Origin: Lentzea guizhouensis
Lineage (GTDB): Bacteria > Actinomycetota > Actinomycetes > Mycobacteriales > Pseudonocardiaceae
Assembly: GCF_001701025.1 (NCBI RefSeq)
Contig: NZ_CP016793.1
Span: 5,952,001-6,016,000, forward strand
Direction: 5' to 3'
DNA length: 64,000 bases
Numbering within the stretch: the stretch's first letter is position 1; each line of letters starts with the position of its first letter. The notes under the pieces are model-generated. The model did no database searches. It saw nothing but the letters and a program-made list of their open reading frames with translations, and was not told the DNA's origin. Shown here piece by piece: positions 19,614 through 25,030 of the stretch. The position numbers and the translations under genes were made by a program.

Positions 19614-20132
19614 AATGAGACCGTGCTGGGCGTGGAGCTCTCCCCGCTACGCCGCTCACTGCTGGAGCTGCTGAAGTCACCCGCCTCGGCGACCCAGCTC
19701 GCGGCCGCCCTGCAGCTGCCCAGGCAGCGCGTCAACTACCACGTGCGCGCCCTGGAGCAGGCAGGACTCGTCGAGCTGGTCGAACAACGCCAGCGCCGCG
19801 GCTGCGTCGAACGCGTGCTGCGCGCCCGGCCGGGCCGGGAGATCGCGGCCGACGTGCAGGACCAGTTCGCCGCGACGCACCTCGTGTCGGTCGCGCAGGA
19901 CACGGCCCGCGAGGTCGAACGGATGTCCGGCGCGGCCGCGGACACCGGAAAGCGCTTGCTCACGTTCACCGTCGAGACCACCGTCCGCTTCGGCGAGCCG
20001 GGAGCCGTCCACGAGTTCACCAGCGACCTCGCCGAAGCGGTGCGGCAGCTCGCGTTGAGGTACGACACCGAATCAGGCCGCCCCTACCGGGTGGTCGCGC
20101 TGGGGCATCCAGGAGGTTCCGATGAGCGATGA
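19602..20132 (+). CDS. ArsR-type winged-helix regulator
   Basis: 176 residues. Residues about 12-75 form a winged helix: SPLRRSLLELLKSPASATQLA, then LPRQRVNYHVRALEQAGLVEL, with the wing EQRQRRGCVERVLRA. The C-terminal 100 residues are helical and probably form the dimer/ligand domain. It overlaps the start of the SRPBCC gene by 11 bases. This ArsR-AHSA1 pairing is common in actinomycetes, where the SRPBCC partner is the usual target. No metal-binding cysteine pair is visible. The ATG at 19602 has no ribosome site and lies inside a palindrome. Confidence 0.85.
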   Translation: MILSNETVLGVELSPLRRSLLELLKSPASATQLAAALQLPRQRVNYHVRALEQAGLVELVEQRQRRGCVERVLRARPGREIAADVQDQFAATHLVSVAQDTAREVERMSGAAADTGKRLLTFTVETTVRFGEPGAVHEFTSDLAEAVRQLALRYDTESGRPYRVVALGHPGGSDER

Positions 20133-20694
20133 AGGCGTCCGGATCGAGATCACCGTGGCCGCACCGGTCGAGGAGGTGTGGCGGTCGTTCCGCGAGAAGG
20201 AGAAGATCCGGCACTGGCACGGCTGGGACCTCCCGGAGCTGGATGCGGAGATCGACCACATCTACTTCCAGAACGCGCGGGAGGACGGCACCACGCTGGT
20301 CCTGCACGGCCACGACACGTTCGAGCTGTCCGCCGCCGACGGCGGCACGCGGGTGGTGTGCACGCGTGCGCCCAAGGGCACGACGCCGGAGTGGGACGAG
20401 TACTACGACGACATCACCGAGGGCTGGATCACGTTCCTGCACCAGCTGAAGTTCGCGCACGAGTTCCACCCGGGGCAGGCGCGGCGGACGTTGTTCTGGC
20501 CGGCGGAGGTCGCGTTCGACGTGGACGGGAAGACGTTCTTCGAGTCGGCGAACCAGCGTGGTGTGGTGGTGGAGGAGTGGGGGCCGGGGCTGCTGGTCAG
20601 CAGCGCGAAGATGACGGTGGTGACCACTTACGGGTTCTCGGACGAGGAGCTGGAGGCGTTGCGGCGCAGGGGTGAGGCGGCAGTGGCGGGCTAA
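20122..20694 (+). CDS. SRPBCC (AHSA1-like) protein
   Basis: 190 residues. Starts MSDEGVRIEITVAAPVEEVW, the first beta strand and helix of the START-like SRPBCC fold, then EGWITFLHQLKFAHEFHPG, the long cavity-lining helix typical of AHSA1 proteins. These bind hydrophobic ligands or act as co-chaperones. The ligand is unknown. AGGAGG ribosome site precedes the ATG. Co-transcribed with the ArsR regulator. Two small hairpins lie downstream. Confidence 0.85.
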   Translation: MSDEGVRIEITVAAPVEEVWRSFREKEKIRHWHGWDLPELDAEIDHIYFQNAREDGTTLVLHGHDTFELSAADGGTRVVCTRAPKGTTPEWDEYYDDITEGWITFLHQLKFAHEFHPGQARRTLFWPAEVAFDVDGKTFFESANQRGVVVEEWGPGLLVSSAKMTVVTTYGFSDEELEALRRRGEAAVAG

Positions 20695-20764
20695 CGTTCG
20701 CGCCAGTGCGTCACGAATGCACTCCGCAGCGCCTCCCTCCACCGGGAGCGGCGCTGCGGGCCGC

Positions 20765-20802
20765 ACCTCGATGCCACCCGAGGTGGCAACGAGGTTCGTT
20801 GC
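20765..20802. terminator. Paired hairpins after SRPBCC gene
   Basis: ACCTCG/CGAGGT (20765-20784) and GCAACGA/TCGTTGC (20786-20802, three-base loop) follow one another. They lie in the 160-base gap before the TIR gene and could terminate the ArsR-SRPBCC transcript. Confidence 0.5.
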
Positions 20803-20858
20803 GCCAGAAGGGTGACGCCGTTTTGTGAAGCGCCTCCCAGAGATCACGATCGGAAGCC

Positions 20859-21452
20859 GTGGGCTACGAGTGGGACGTCTTCCTGAGCTACACGCGCAAC
20901 GGCGGTGGCGACGTGTGGGTCCGGGAGCACTTCTACCGGGCCCTGCGCGAGTGGCTGGGCAACGAGATGGCCGACGAGCCGCGGATCTTCGTGGACTGGG
21001 ACCAGGACGGCGGCACGAGCTGGCCGGACAGCCTGGAGCGGGCGTTGTTGCGGTCGAAGGTCATGGTGGCCGTGTTGTCGCCGCCGTACTTCCGGTCTGC
21101 CTGGTGCCTGGCTGAGTGGGAGAGCATGTGGGAGCGGCACCGGGCGCTCGGGTATGGCACCACGGACCACCCGCGGCACCTGATCCTGGCGGTCAGGTAT
21201 GCGGATGGGCAGCACTTTCCCGCTGAGGCGCAGTCGACGCTGCTGAGGGACTTCACGCCGTGGAACAAGCCGTTGGCGTATGAGGTGTACAGCCGGTCGG
21301 CGCAGTACGAGCACTTCTACACGGCTGTGCAGCAGTTTGCCGAAGAGGTGGCGAAACGCATCGAGGAAGTGCCACCGTGGAACCCCGAGTGGCGTGTGGT
21401 GCGGCCGCCGCTGAAACCAGGGCTGCCTCCCGGCCCGTTGCCGAGGTTGTGA
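20859..21452 (+). CDS. TIR-domain protein
   Basis: 197 residues. Starts YEWDVFLSYTRNGG (TIR box 1), then PRIFVDWDQDGGTSW (box 2 region), LLRSKVMVAVLSPPYFRSAW and CLAEWESMW. The glutamate at residue 86 after W-C-L-A is in the place of the catalytic residue in NAD-cleaving TIR enzymes. The C-terminal 60 residues are helical and proline-rich. Starts at GTG 20859 after a GGAAG site. Its stop overlaps the GTG start of the downstream ATPase gene (GTGA), so the two are co-translated. Probably a TIR effector or scaffold in a bacterial signalling or conflict system. NADase activity is inferred, not shown. Confidence 0.88.
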   Translation: MGYEWDVFLSYTRNGGGDVWVREHFYRALREWLGNEMADEPRIFVDWDQDGGTSWPDSLERALLRSKVMVAVLSPPYFRSAWCLAEWESMWERHRALGYGTTDHPRHLILAVRYADGQHFPAEAQSTLLRDFTPWNKPLAYEVYSRSAQYEHFYTAVQQFAEEVAKRIEEVPPWNPEWRVVRPPLKPGLPPGPLPRL

Positions 21453-23803
21453 TCGGCGTGATCGTCACCTTCTACTCGTACAAGGGCGGTGTCGGCCGTT
21501 CGTTCTGCCTGGTCAACGTCGCCGTGCAGCTCGCGCGGTGGGGCAACCGGGTGCTGTGCGTCGACTTCGACCTCGACGCGCCGGGGTTGCACGAGTACTT
21601 CCGGCCCTACCTCGACGGGGTGCCGCAGAAGGGGCTGGTGGAGGTGGTGGCGGGTGAGGTGGAGTGGCAGGACGCGGTGAGCGCGGTGGCGGTGCCGGAC
21701 ACCGACGGGCTCGCGTTGCTGGCGGCCGGGCGGATGGACGAGACGTACGCGGACCGGGCGCAGGCGTTGTCGTGGCCGGAGCTGTTCGCGCGGCACGACC
21801 TCGGGTGGCGGTTCGAGAAGATCCGGCAGGAGTGGCTGGCGGAGTACGACTACGTGCTCATCGACTCGCGCACCGGCATCACCGACATCGGCGGGATTTG
21901 CACGGCGCAGCTGCCGAAGGTGCTGGTGTTGTGCGTGGCGCCGAACCAGCAGAACCTCGACGGCACGCTGGACGTCGCGCGCAGGGCGGCGGTGGCGCGC
22001 GACAAGCTGCCGTACGACCGGGCCGGGTTGCTCTTCCTGCCGGTGGCGTCCCGGTTCGACGGGCGGGAGGAGTACGAGCGGGCGCGGTCGTGGCGGTCGG
22101 TGCTCGCGGAGAGGTTCGCGGACCTGTACTCCAGCTGGATGCCCGCGGACAACGGTGACGCCGAGCCGGAGCTGGGGCTGGTCGAACGCACCACCGTGCC
22201 GTACCTGCCGTACTGGAGTTTCGGCGAGGAGATCGCGGTCATCGACGAACGCAGCGGCAACCCGGACACCGTGTCCTACTACATGGACAACATCGCGGCG
22301 TTGCTCGCGCACGGCCTGGCGGACGCGGACGTGCTCGTGTCCAACCGTGACACCTATGTCTCCGCCGCACGTGAACGCAGCAATCGCTCACAAGGCCAGG
22401 GATACCGCTACGACGTGCTGGTGCACGGCACGTCCGAGCGCGCCATCGGGCTGACCGAGGAGCTGGCGAGGCTGGGCGTGCGGGCGGTGCGGGGGCGGCT
22501 GGCCGAGCTGTCGATGGCGCGGCACTTCGTGGTCGTCGACCCGCCCGCGCGGCCGTCGGCGGGCATCCAGGAGATCCTCGACCAGGCGCAGCTCGACAGC
22601 GGCCGGCTGGTCGTCGCGGTGGTGGAGGCCGACGCGGACGGGCCGCGTCAGCTCGTGTCGGTCCGGCTGGTCTACACCTCGGACGGTGCCGCCGACCTGG
22701 CCGTCACCGTCGCCGGGCTGCTGCCGGGCGGTGGGGTGCGGTGGGAACGGGTGCTGGTCGCCGCGGCGTCCGTGCTCCGAGGGCGAGGAAACGTCGAGGC
22801 TGCCTTCGCGCTCGCCACCCGTGCGGTCGGCAGCACCGGGCGGCCGGTCGACTCGCTGCTGCTGCGCGGCCGGATCGCCCACGAGCTCGGCCGGCTCGAT
22901 GACGCCCGCGACGACCTGCAGACCGTGCTCAACCGGGTGCCGCGCCAGTCCGCGCAGGCGCACCAGGCCTACCGGCTGCTCGGCGCGATCCACCGCGACT
23001 CCGGTGACTTCACCGCCGCGGTCACCGACTTCGACCTGGCGCTGGGCTCCGAGGCGAGCCCACGCGACCACGCGCTCGTGCACCGCGACCTCGCCCGGAT
23101 CGCGTTGCTCACCGGCGACTACGAGGTCGCCACGGCCAAGTTCGAGAACGCACGGGCGGTCCTCGGCGCCACCGACGCGGTGCTGGCGGCGGAGCTGGCG
23201 TTCGAGCTGGGCTCGCTGCGCGTCGACCGCGGTGAGTTCGCCGAGGCGCTCGACCTGCTGAACCTCGCCCTCGAGTCGCAGCGGCTGACCACCGATGACC
23301 GGGTGACCGCCCTGCGCCAGCTCGCCTACCTGCACACCCAGGCCCGCCAGTACGAGGCCGCCGCCGATCACCTGCGCCAGGCCCTCACGCTCGTGTCCTC
23401 CGGCGACGTCGTGGACATCGCCGTCGAGCTCTCCCAGGTGCAGCGCGAGGCCCACGGCACCGACGCCGCCAACGACGAGCTGGAAGCCGTGCTCACCACC
23501 CTGGACCCGGCCGACCGGCGGTCCAGGGCACGGCTGCGCGAGGCCCAGGGCAACCTGCAGCTCGACAGCGGCGACGTGGACCTCGCGGTGGCGGCGTTCG
23601 AGGGCGCGCTGACGACGTTCCGCGGCCTGGGCGACCGGGCGGGGGAGGTGCGGGCGCTGATCGGGCTCGCCGGGGCGTTCCAGGACCGCGACTACGACCG
23701 CGCGTTCGCCGCCTGGGACGAGGCACGGCGGCTGCTCACCAGGTTGCGGGGCTCGGAGGCCGACCTGCTGCGGCGTCAGCTCGACGCCGTCGACCCCAGG
23801 TAG
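21449..23803 (+). CDS. KGGVGR-motif SIMIBI ATPase with TPR repeats
   Basis: 784 residues. Starts VIGVIVTFYSYKGGVGRSF, the variant deviant-Walker A KGGVGR, in which the usual final lysine is arginine. VLCVDFDLDAPG (Walker A' partner) and YDYVLIDSRTGITDIGG (switch II) follow. Residues about 300-430 hold a small alpha/beta segment beginning YDVLVHGTSERAIGL that may be a degenerate TIR-like domain. From about residue 430 to the end are TPR units (for example VDSLLLRGRIAHELGRLDDA, YRLLGAIHRDSGDFTAAVTD). It overlaps the TIR gene by four bases. The ATPase may sense or gate the TIR effector while TPRs bind a partner. Its 3' end overlaps the convergent oxidase gene by 28 bases. Confidence 0.85.
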   Translation: MIGVIVTFYSYKGGVGRSFCLVNVAVQLARWGNRVLCVDFDLDAPGLHEYFRPYLDGVPQKGLVEVVAGEVEWQDAVSAVAVPDTDGLALLAAGRMDETYADRAQALSWPELFARHDLGWRFEKIRQEWLAEYDYVLIDSRTGITDIGGICTAQLPKVLVLCVAPNQQNLDGTLDVARRAAVARDKLPYDRAGLLFLPVASRFDGREEYERARSWRSVLAERFADLYSSWMPADNGDAEPELGLVERTTVPYLPYWSFGEEIAVIDERSGNPDTVSYYMDNIAALLAHGLADADVLVSNRDTYVSAARERSNRSQGQGYRYDVLVHGTSERAIGLTEELARLGVRAVRGRLAELSMARHFVVVDPPARPSAGIQEILDQAQLDSGRLVVAVVEADADGPRQLVSVRLVYTSDGAADLAVTVAGLLPGGGVRWERVLVAAASVLRGRGNVEAAFALATRAVGSTGRPVDSLLLRGRIAHELGRLDDARDDLQTVLNRVPRQSAQAHQAYRLLGAIHRDSGDFTAAVTDFDLALGSEASPRDHALVHRDLARIALLTGDYEVATAKFENARAVLGATDAVLAAELAFELGSLRVDRGEFAEALDLLNLALESQRLTTDDRVTALRQLAYLHTQARQYEAAADHLRQALTLVSSGDVVDIAVELSQVQREAHGTDAANDELEAVLTTLDPADRRSRARLREAQGNLQLDSGDVDLAVAAFEGALTTFRGLGDRAGEVRALIGLAGAFQDRDYDRAFAAWDEARRLLTRLRGSEADLLRRQLDAVDPR

Positions 23804-24978
23804 CTGTCGAGGAACGCGTTGCGGAACACGCCCTTCGGGTCGTGCTCGCGCAGCAGCGCCCGGAAGTCGTCCCACTTCGGGTAGCGGGCGGCCAGCAACG
23901 GCGCCGGCACGGTGAAGAGCTTGCCCCAGTGCGGCCGCGGCGCGATCGCCTCCTCCAGCCGCGGCAACAGCTCCAGCACCCGCGCCGGGTCCGGCACCCA
24001 GGTGAAGTGGATCGCCAGGCTGTCCCGGTCGCAGGCGGGGCTCAGCCACTGCGGCTCGGCGGAGATCGTGCGGATCTCGCAGGCCTGCACCAGCGGCGAG
24101 ATCACCGTCGACATCTCCGCCAGCGCCCGCAACGCCGTCACCGCACGGGTGCGCGGCACGAAGTACTCGGTCTGCAGCTCCGCACCCACCGACGGGGTGA
24201 ACTCGGCCCGGAAGTGCGGCAGCCGCTCGTGCCACGGCCCCGGCACGCCGTCCTGCACCGTGCACCGCGACGGCGGCTGACCCACCACCGGGTGCCGCGG
24301 CCCGTCCGCCCTGCGGCCGGGGAAGGGGAACTCGGGATCACCCACCCGGTGCTTCACCCACAGCGTCGCACCGCCCTGCCAGTCGATGAACGCGCTCACG
24401 CTGTACGCGCCGTCGAAGACCTGCTCCAGCGACCCGAGCAACGTCGTCCACGCCACGTCCTCGTACACCGTCTGCGCCACCTGGAACGACGGCACCACGT
24501 CCAGCTCGACCGCCGTGACCACGCCCAGCCCGCCCAGCGACACCACCGCGCCCGGCGAGGTCAGCGACACCACGGACCCGTCGGCGCGCATCACCTCGAC
24601 CGCGCGCACCGCACCGGCCAGCGAACGGGCACCGGACCCGTGCGTGGCCGTCGTGACCGCGCCCGCCACGGTGATGTGCGGCAACGACGGCATGGTGTGC
24701 AGCGCCAGACCGGCCGCCTCCAGCCGCGGGGCCAGCTGTGCAAGGGTCATGCCGGCGCTCACCCGCACGGTCGGCCCGCTCACCTCGAACTCGTCGGGCA
24801 TCGCCGCGAGCGACACCAGCGTGCCGGTCGTGTCGGCGACCGTGCTGAACGAGTGCCCGGTCCCGACGACGTGCACGGCGGCGGCACCGCGCACCACGGC
24901 TCGCAGGTCGTCGGCCGACTCCGGCGAGACGACCGAGGCCGCGGAGAACGTGACGTTGCCGGCCCAGTTGGTCCTCAT
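23776..24978 (-). CDS. FAD-linked alditol/xylitol oxidase-like flavoprotein
   Basis: 400 residues. VVGTGHSFSTVADTTGTLV contains the histidine that carries covalent FAD in alditol oxidase (AldO) and related VAO-family enzymes. LPHITVAGAVTTATHGSG, the next conserved FAD contact, follows. The C-terminal DFRALLREHDPKGVFRNAFL is the family tail. These enzymes oxidise polyols or aldonolactones and release hydrogen peroxide. The substrate cannot be fixed by sequence. The ATG at 24976-24978 (MRTNWAGN) is the start. It is divergent from an O-methyltransferase gene with a palindrome between them. Confidence 0.85.
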   Translation of the reverse strand: MRTNWAGNVTFSAASVVSPESADDLRAVVRGAAAVHVVGTGHSFSTVADTTGTLVSLAAMPDEFEVSGPTVRVSAGMTLAQLAPRLEAAGLALHTMPSLPHITVAGAVTTATHGSGARSLAGAVRAVEVMRADGSVVSLTSPGAVVSLGGLGVVTAVELDVVPSFQVAQTVYEDVAWTTLLGSLEQVFDGAYSVSAFIDWQGGATLWVKHRVGDPEFPFPGRRADGPRHPVVGQPPSRCTVQDGVPGPWHERLPHFRAEFTPSVGAELQTEYFVPRTRAVTALRALAEMSTVISPLVQACEIRTISAEPQWLSPACDRDSLAIHFTWVPDPARVLELLPRLEEAIAPRPHWGKLFTVPAPLLAARYPKWDDFRALLREHDPKGVFRNAFLDSYLGSTASS

Positions 24979-25030
24979 GCACACACGGTAAGCGCCGAAC
25001 CGTGCAGTCGTTCCACGCTATTGCTTCAGT

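Follow-up and report, generated by a model that had tools for sequence, protein, structure and literature searches.

The locus

A 64,000-nucleotide stretch of Lentzea guizhouensis DNA (contig NZ_CP016793.1, positions 5,952,001 to 6,016,000; hereafter the window) carries two overlapping forward-strand genes that are the subject of this analysis. The first (20859..21452, +) begins with a GTG codon at 20859 and codes for a stand-alone TIR protein of 197 amino acids. The second (21449..23803, +) codes for a 784-amino acid KGGVGR-motif variant ATPase that continues into a TIR-like region and a series of TPRs. The GTG start codon of this gene at 21449 lies within the TGA stop of the TIR gene, such that GTGA forms the overlap. 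A gap of 164 bp (20695-20858) precedes the TIR gene, and thus the strict two-gene unit with its own upstream gap that had been proposed in the first-pass annotation is present as described. The 3′ end of the ATPase gene is convergent with an oxidase gene (23776-24984, −), and the two overlap by 28 bp. Scans for sigma-70 promoters and terminators found none, and DNA alignment of upstream regions added no information. No transfer RNA genes were found in the window.

The arrangement is a real gene pair rather than a product of chance. The neighbor relationship is conserved in 29 of 30 TIR loci, as described below, and comparison of the TIR gene with a 90%-identical orthologue gives a nonsynonymous divergence (dN) of 0.034 and a synonymous divergence (dS) of 0.264.

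The TIR protein matches Pfam TIR_2 (PF13676) with 52.3 bits (cut-off 28) and carries a glutamate at the catalytic position, E86 (codon 21114-21116), within the sequence SAWCLAEW that includes the WCLAE motif. This residue is unchanged across all 41 rows of the TIR alignment (A1, window included), and the WCxxE motif is found in 60 of the 62 TIR homologues listed, the remaining two lying outside the searched slice. The catalytic-position glutamate noted in the first-pass annotation is therefore well founded. The protein is probably an enzyme that cuts nicotinamide adenine dinucleotide (NAD). Its closest named relatives, among the matches listed, are from Lentzea.

Conservation of the pair across bacteria

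Genome contigs were scanned for TIR relatives with the pattern YFRSxWCxAE, which reports only TIRs with the WCxAE motif because the pattern contains it, and the downstream ATPase open reading frame (ORF) was recognized by FYS[YF]KGGVGR[ST]. A KGGVGR ATPase is located directly downstream and on the same strand in the 29 paired loci, where the KGGVGR motif is located 23-111 bp past the matched TIR segment. The single exception (L068, from Frankia) is a weak partial TIR match. Pairs are found in Actinomycetota, Anaerolineae, a cyanobacterium, Planctomycetota, Acidobacteria/Holophagales, Verrucomicrobiales, Archangium, Nitrosomonas and a deltaproteobacterium. These represent eight phyla as assigned from record names, several of the records being contigs of metagenome-assembled genomes. 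The first-pass annotation had called for a search for conserved TIR and KGGVGR neighborhoods, and the pair is indeed not rare. A possible ATPase start codon lies at −4 or −1 relative to the TIR stop in 21 of the 29 pairs.

Selection from the ATPase side gives the same picture, with a TIR gene directly upstream in all 22 fetched loci, own locus included. These loci were drawn from 28 same-genus matches listed at E<=1.2e-81 and overlap with the 29 loci found from the TIR side. Moreover, TIR distances and ATPase distances are strongly correlated (r 0.90, n=31), a value that includes shared ancestry and that none of 2000 permutations equaled. This set of 31 diverse pairs consists of 28 of the 29 paired loci together with L069, L079 and the window, and leaves out a contig-cut locus (L065) and the unpaired Frankia locus. 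The presence of E86 in 31 of 31 members is uninformative because the motif is in the search pattern, and so conservation of this residue rests on alignment A1 and the WCxxE counts.

Two genome samples not chosen for pairing were also searched with the A1 TIR profile at 1e-25, with eight candidates scored per genome, so that misses are possible. The own genome was the only one found among 396 genomes of the phylum, and one of 392 genomes in the genus of G082 was found, in which the locus is paired. The wider KGGVGR family is less strictly paired with TIR genes: among nine loci other than our own in the 396-genome sample, four have an A1-type TIR within ~1.5 kb and five do not.

Among plasmids, one record from Sinorhizobium chiapasense (L069) carries a TIR gene followed by a gene for a KGGVGR protein. 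Three more annotated TIR genes are located within 6 kb upstream of this pair (L069:1-8797), and the TIR of the pair itself is annotated merely as a short hypothetical protein.

The variant P-loop and the ATPase domain

The ParA/MinD-like ATPase domain (21449..22378, +) spans residues 1-310 and scores over the cut-off for Pfam AAA_31 and CbiA, and for NCBIfam AAA_KGGVGR (NF047398, 'KGGVGR-motif variant AAA ATPase'; 144.7 bits, cut-off 90). The consensus for the Walker A motif of ParA/MinD proteins is KGGxGK[ST]. The P-loop in the window (21482..21499, +; K12-R17), which is embedded in YSYKGGVGRS, reads KGGVGRS, with arginine in the position of the canonical Walker A lysine. R17 is present in 119 of the 120 ATPase homologues listed (1204 found) and in all 29 paired ATPases when the search pattern leaves that residue free.

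Residues K12, R17, D39, D41 and D139 show no variation over the 34 rows of the ATPase alignment (A2), and the three aspartates are unchanged in 31 of 31 diverse pairs. The K12 and R17 counts in the latter set are uninformative because KGGVGR is fixed in its pattern. Judged from these sequences, the nucleotide site looks maintained.

The closest named ATPase relatives are from 'Nocardia sp. NRRL S-836' (90%) and then from Lentzea, and many of the closest named relatives bear the KGGVGR-motif variant family name, both among the matches listed. A ParA/MinD-like partner with an arginine P-loop followed by TPRs had been predicted, and this description agrees with the family match, the motif and the TPR matches reported below. 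A point to correct is that the ATPase already belongs to a named NCBIfam family. The window domain lies well over the cut-off for NF047398, which includes 'CATRA system-associated' proteins (PF20271), but no function can be read from the name of this family. PF20271 itself is not among the best 25 of 27 Pfam families for the window ATPase at E<=0.1, and is matched by two comparison proteins (P0133 and P0140).

The middle region and the TPR tail

The first-pass annotation had the ATPase domain leading into TPRs, which is correct except that it missed a domain between the two. This middle part (22403..22723, +; residues ~319-425) looks like a degenerate TIR-like domain that is without the WCxxE motif. 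The profile relation to TIRs is only transitive. When 30 window-type middle domains were aligned by hhalign with 18 homologues that mostly bear TIR_2, the match was strong (prob 98.7, E 2.6e-15), as was the match between these 18 homologues and the A1 TIRs (prob 98.9, E 2.1e-16), whereas direct hhalign comparison of the window-type middle domain with the A1 TIRs was not significant. These groups were limited to proteins in which the end of the ATPase domain could be located by a pattern (119 of 162).

An AlphaFold model of residues 312-432 (predicted local distance difference test, pLDDT, 84.6) has TIRs as its best rows against the PDB, with a fold near those of the SPARTA TIR-APAZ protein and the SARM1 TIR. 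In addition, Pfam TIR_2 is found behind the ATPase domain in six of ten diverse partners. The presence of a TIR-like domain in the ATPase suggests TIR-TIR recruitment. A Foldseek search with the full ATPase model retrieved TPR and other repeat proteins, with no TIR or ParA structure in the best 50 rows. Alignment A3 was left out of folding, as the second subtype (see below) was misplaced in it.

The remainder of the protein (22736..23800, +; residues ~430-784) is a predicted TPR superhelix, with TPR-type matches between residues ~438 and 742, and it is the fastest-changing part. In 19 homologues that are 60-64% identical overall (P0067-P0085, the named ones being Lentzea), identity to the window protein is 79-82% in the ATPase domain, 52-72% in the middle domain and 41-51% in the TPR part.

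The tails vary widely among the diverse partners. The length of the ATPase after the motif ranges from 410 to 1220 amino acids (L053 and L065 are contig-cut), and among the tails are TPR together with a cold-shock domain, GUN4, NB-ARC plus TPR, NACHT plus FGE-sulfatase, and additional TIRs. Some individual proteins are worth recording. Two KGGVGR ATPases with a C-terminal TIR (L060:7585-9813 and L055:2915-4381) match Thoeris ThsB1 models (6e-38 and 3.5e-27), and the C-terminal GUN4-like domain of a cyanobacterial ATPase (L046:984-2804) matches the PADLOC model PD-T4-6 (8e-38). In another locus (L067:7618-9396), the KGGVGR ATPase ends in a second TIR, which belongs to the same family and is interrupted by a stop or frame change.

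Genomic site and a second subtype

The pair is bordered on the left by an AHSA1/SRPBCC-like gene (20122..20694, +) and on the right by the gene for an oxidase of the flavin adenine dinucleotide (FAD)/D-arabinono-1,4-lactone type (23776..24984, −), each with matches in 24 of 24 genomes of the genus. The pair lies between these two genes in six of the 24 (the own genome, G003, G007, G010, G019 and G022), where the gap is 2.9-5.3 kb. The site is empty in 14 genomes, in which the flanking genes abut or overlap (gap <=170 bp). Three more genomes have 0.7-1.5 kb between the flanking genes and no pair, and in one the flanking genes are on different contigs. The window pair is thus accessory in the genus, and its gain or loss took place at a single fixed site.

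In two genomes this site holds other ORFs, namely a pentapeptide-repeat-like ORF in G006 (L083:4182-5216, −) and SDR-like and TetR-like ORFs in G013 (L084:3624-5179), both by ORF reading, and so it could be a minor hot spot for insertions. In G007, which carries a 90% identical relative (L080:7026-9411), ~2.4 kb separates the left flanking gene from the TIR gene, compared with 164 bp in the window.

The own genome carries a second TIR-KGGVGR pair (L001/L079:7971-13973; G000:C1 ~5431970-5437972), which is followed by an ORF for a 1184-amino acid HerA-like AAA ATPase (PF01935, AAA_22). All 19 other loci of this second subtype that were tested, by tblastn with the N-terminal 300 residues of the HerA-like protein, likewise have such a gene after the ATPase. 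Known defenses include NADase-HerA systems, SIR2-HerA among them. Unlike the window pair, the second subtype is near-universal in the genus, with ATPase matches in 22 of 24 genomes.

Comparison with known systems

FxsC-FxsT (FxsC, NF040588/TIGR04276; FxSxx_TPR, NF040586) has the same layout: the gene for a TIR-like protein immediately precedes that for a KGG.GR ATPase, which continues into TIR_2 just as the window ATPase continues into its TIR-like domain. For example, one comparison locus (L073) carries FxsC (239 bits) followed by a protein in which AAA_KGGVGR, TIR_2 and NB-ARC are combined. This protein matches FxSxx_TPR with 328 bits (cut-off 300) and has the P-loop KGGTGR. In another (L076), FxsC is over its cut-off and FxSxx_TPR, with 263 bits, is under. 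The association of a TIR gene with a KGG.GR ATPase was thus already present in FxSxx-COOH systems. However, the window TIR has 197 amino acids and reaches 63.2 bits for FxsC (cut-off 130), although FxsC is its best named relative. FxSxx_TPR is not among the best 25 of 29 NCBIfam rows for the window ATPase, and the tail is TPR, with no NB-ARC among the best 25 of 27 Pfam families. In the own genome the best match to the FxsB radical SAM protein has 25.3 bits (cut-off 370), and a whole-genome search found no FxsC over the cut-off. We therefore rejected membership in the FxSxx-COOH systems and regard the window pair as a stand-alone relative of FxsC-FxsT.

The first-pass annotation also considered a ParA-type partner to be unlike well-studied TIR defense systems. 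This must be amended, as Kaur 2020 (PMC7159879) places MinD/ParA-like domains that are predicted to be inactive in conflict systems, namely VMAP systems and the AP-ATPases of stand-alone peptide systems. These systems, which occur in multicellular bacteria, resemble the window pair in combining a ParA-like domain with TPR, AP-ATPase and TIR parts, but a stand-alone TIR-ATPase pair is not described in the passages concerned, and no MoxR-vWA or VMAP gene is present among the six window neighbors tested. The 'inactive' label used by Kaur 2020 needs qualifying for the window ATPase because its nucleotide-site residues are invariant.

Thoeris ThsA-ThsB, SPARTA (pAgo with TIR-APAZ) and SpbK share with the window pair a TIR enzyme under the control of a partner or trigger, and for SPARTA and SARM1 the likeness extends to the fold of the middle domain noted above. 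The window TIR is instead paired with a ParA-like ATPase that bears a TIR-like domain, in place of a SIR2-SLOG, Macro or Argonaute protein. Thoeris was rejected for the window TIR, as no PADLOC model for ThsB matches it at E<=1 and NCBIfam ThcB4 reaches 13.7 bits (cut-off 220). Weak ThsB matches are seen in two relatives, L055 (3e-3) and L001 (1e-4). A plain ParA partition protein was rejected in view of the arginine P-loop and the TIR partner. No publication on a stand-alone TIR-KGGVGR pair is among the literature matches listed, subscription papers being outside their scope, and the literature term KGGVGR returned 0 papers.

Proposed function and alternatives

We propose, at about an even chance of being right, that the two genes together form a stand-alone and accessory conflict module in which a catalytic TIR is controlled by a regulatory ATPase. 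In favor of this are the conserved pairing and gene coupling, the correlated distances of the two proteins, the invariant residues in both, the TIR-like middle domain, the variable tails with their fast-changing TPR part, the accessory insertion, and the HerA-like gene that accompanies the second copy. The TIR would be an effector or signal maker that acts on NAD+. ATP binding would cause the ParA-type domain to dimerize, and the degenerate TIR-like domain might then act as an adaptor that draws in the catalytic TIR, a separate protein, through homotypic contacts, such that composite active sites form. The C-terminal TPR superhelix would keep the complex inactive until an invader or a stress cue is bound, whereupon NAD+ would be hydrolyzed, or an ADP-ribose signal made, and the cell would stop or die. 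Coupled translation from the overlapping genes would suit a fixed stoichiometry.

Several observations weigh against a defense role. A defense-island test of the pair neighborhoods gave no support: 16 PADLOC models were matched at E<=1e-15 among 91 flanking ORFs, each in one member and without a control set, and these include PDC-S01, PDC-S17, ThsB, C3a206 and C3a214. The 91 tested ORFs came from 149 flanking ORFs at 23 loci that were called by a greedy longest-first script, and some are perhaps not real genes. The six neighbors of the window pair that were tested are ordinary, none of nine pattern matches in viral contigs was confirmed as a relative, and the second subtype, as noted above, is near-universal in the genus.

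The missing defense-island signal and the wide presence of the second subtype would both fit a signaling or developmental module, in which a cousin of FxsC-FxsT takes part in peptide- or morphology-linked signaling in filamentous and other multicellular bacteria and the TIR provides a scaffold or makes a signal at a low level. The shared gene order and domain order favor this as well. We nevertheless consider it unlikely, as the own genome is without FxsB or FxsC over the cut-offs, the window pair is accessory and sits at a fixed site, the tails vary widely, and the pair is found far beyond Actinomycetota. The tight gene coupling and the near-constant pairing could instead reflect restraint of a toxin, with the ATPase an antitoxin-like keeper that holds the TIR inactive and is lost or released upon infection, perhaps by using its TIR-like domain to cap the TIR surface. 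This too seems improbable to us, since a long partner with a fast-changing TPR tail is better suited to sensing, and the invariant nucleotide-site residues of the ATPase also speak against it.

Finally, the ATPase could be a true ParA/MinD-like partition or positioning protein that places a TIR assembly and uses its nucleotide cycle for localization rather than switching. The ParA-family domain does keep the signature lysine, but arginine takes the place of the Walker A lysine in 119 of the 120 homologues listed and none of the six window neighbors tested is ParB- or MinE-like, and we give this explanation very little credence. The conflict module with a regulatory ATPase remains the interpretation that we favor.

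Implications

A broader interpretation, which we offer tentatively and consider possible rather than probable, is that pairs of this kind constitute a distinct class of TIR immunity present in at least eight phyla. An ATP-sandwich dimer of a ParA-type ATPase with an arginine Walker A motif would be the switch, a dead TIR-like domain would seed the assembly of live TIRs, and swappable tails (TPR, NACHT-FGE, NB-ARC, GUN4 or TIR) would set the sensing and additions. FxsC-FxsT would then be a branch linked to ribosomally synthesized and post-translationally modified peptides (RiPPs).

Plants, animals and bacteria all use TIR enzymes in immunity, and a central question is how the assembly of these enzymes is set off. 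With only two genes and one catalytic residue, the system is directly testable. If the proposal is correct, a new kind of trigger would be added, namely a MinD/ParA-type ATPase that bears a TIR-like adaptor and has swappable tails. The unexplained KGGVGR ATPases would thereby gain a function, and the result would also have a bearing on the role of FxsC-FxsT in FxSxx systems.

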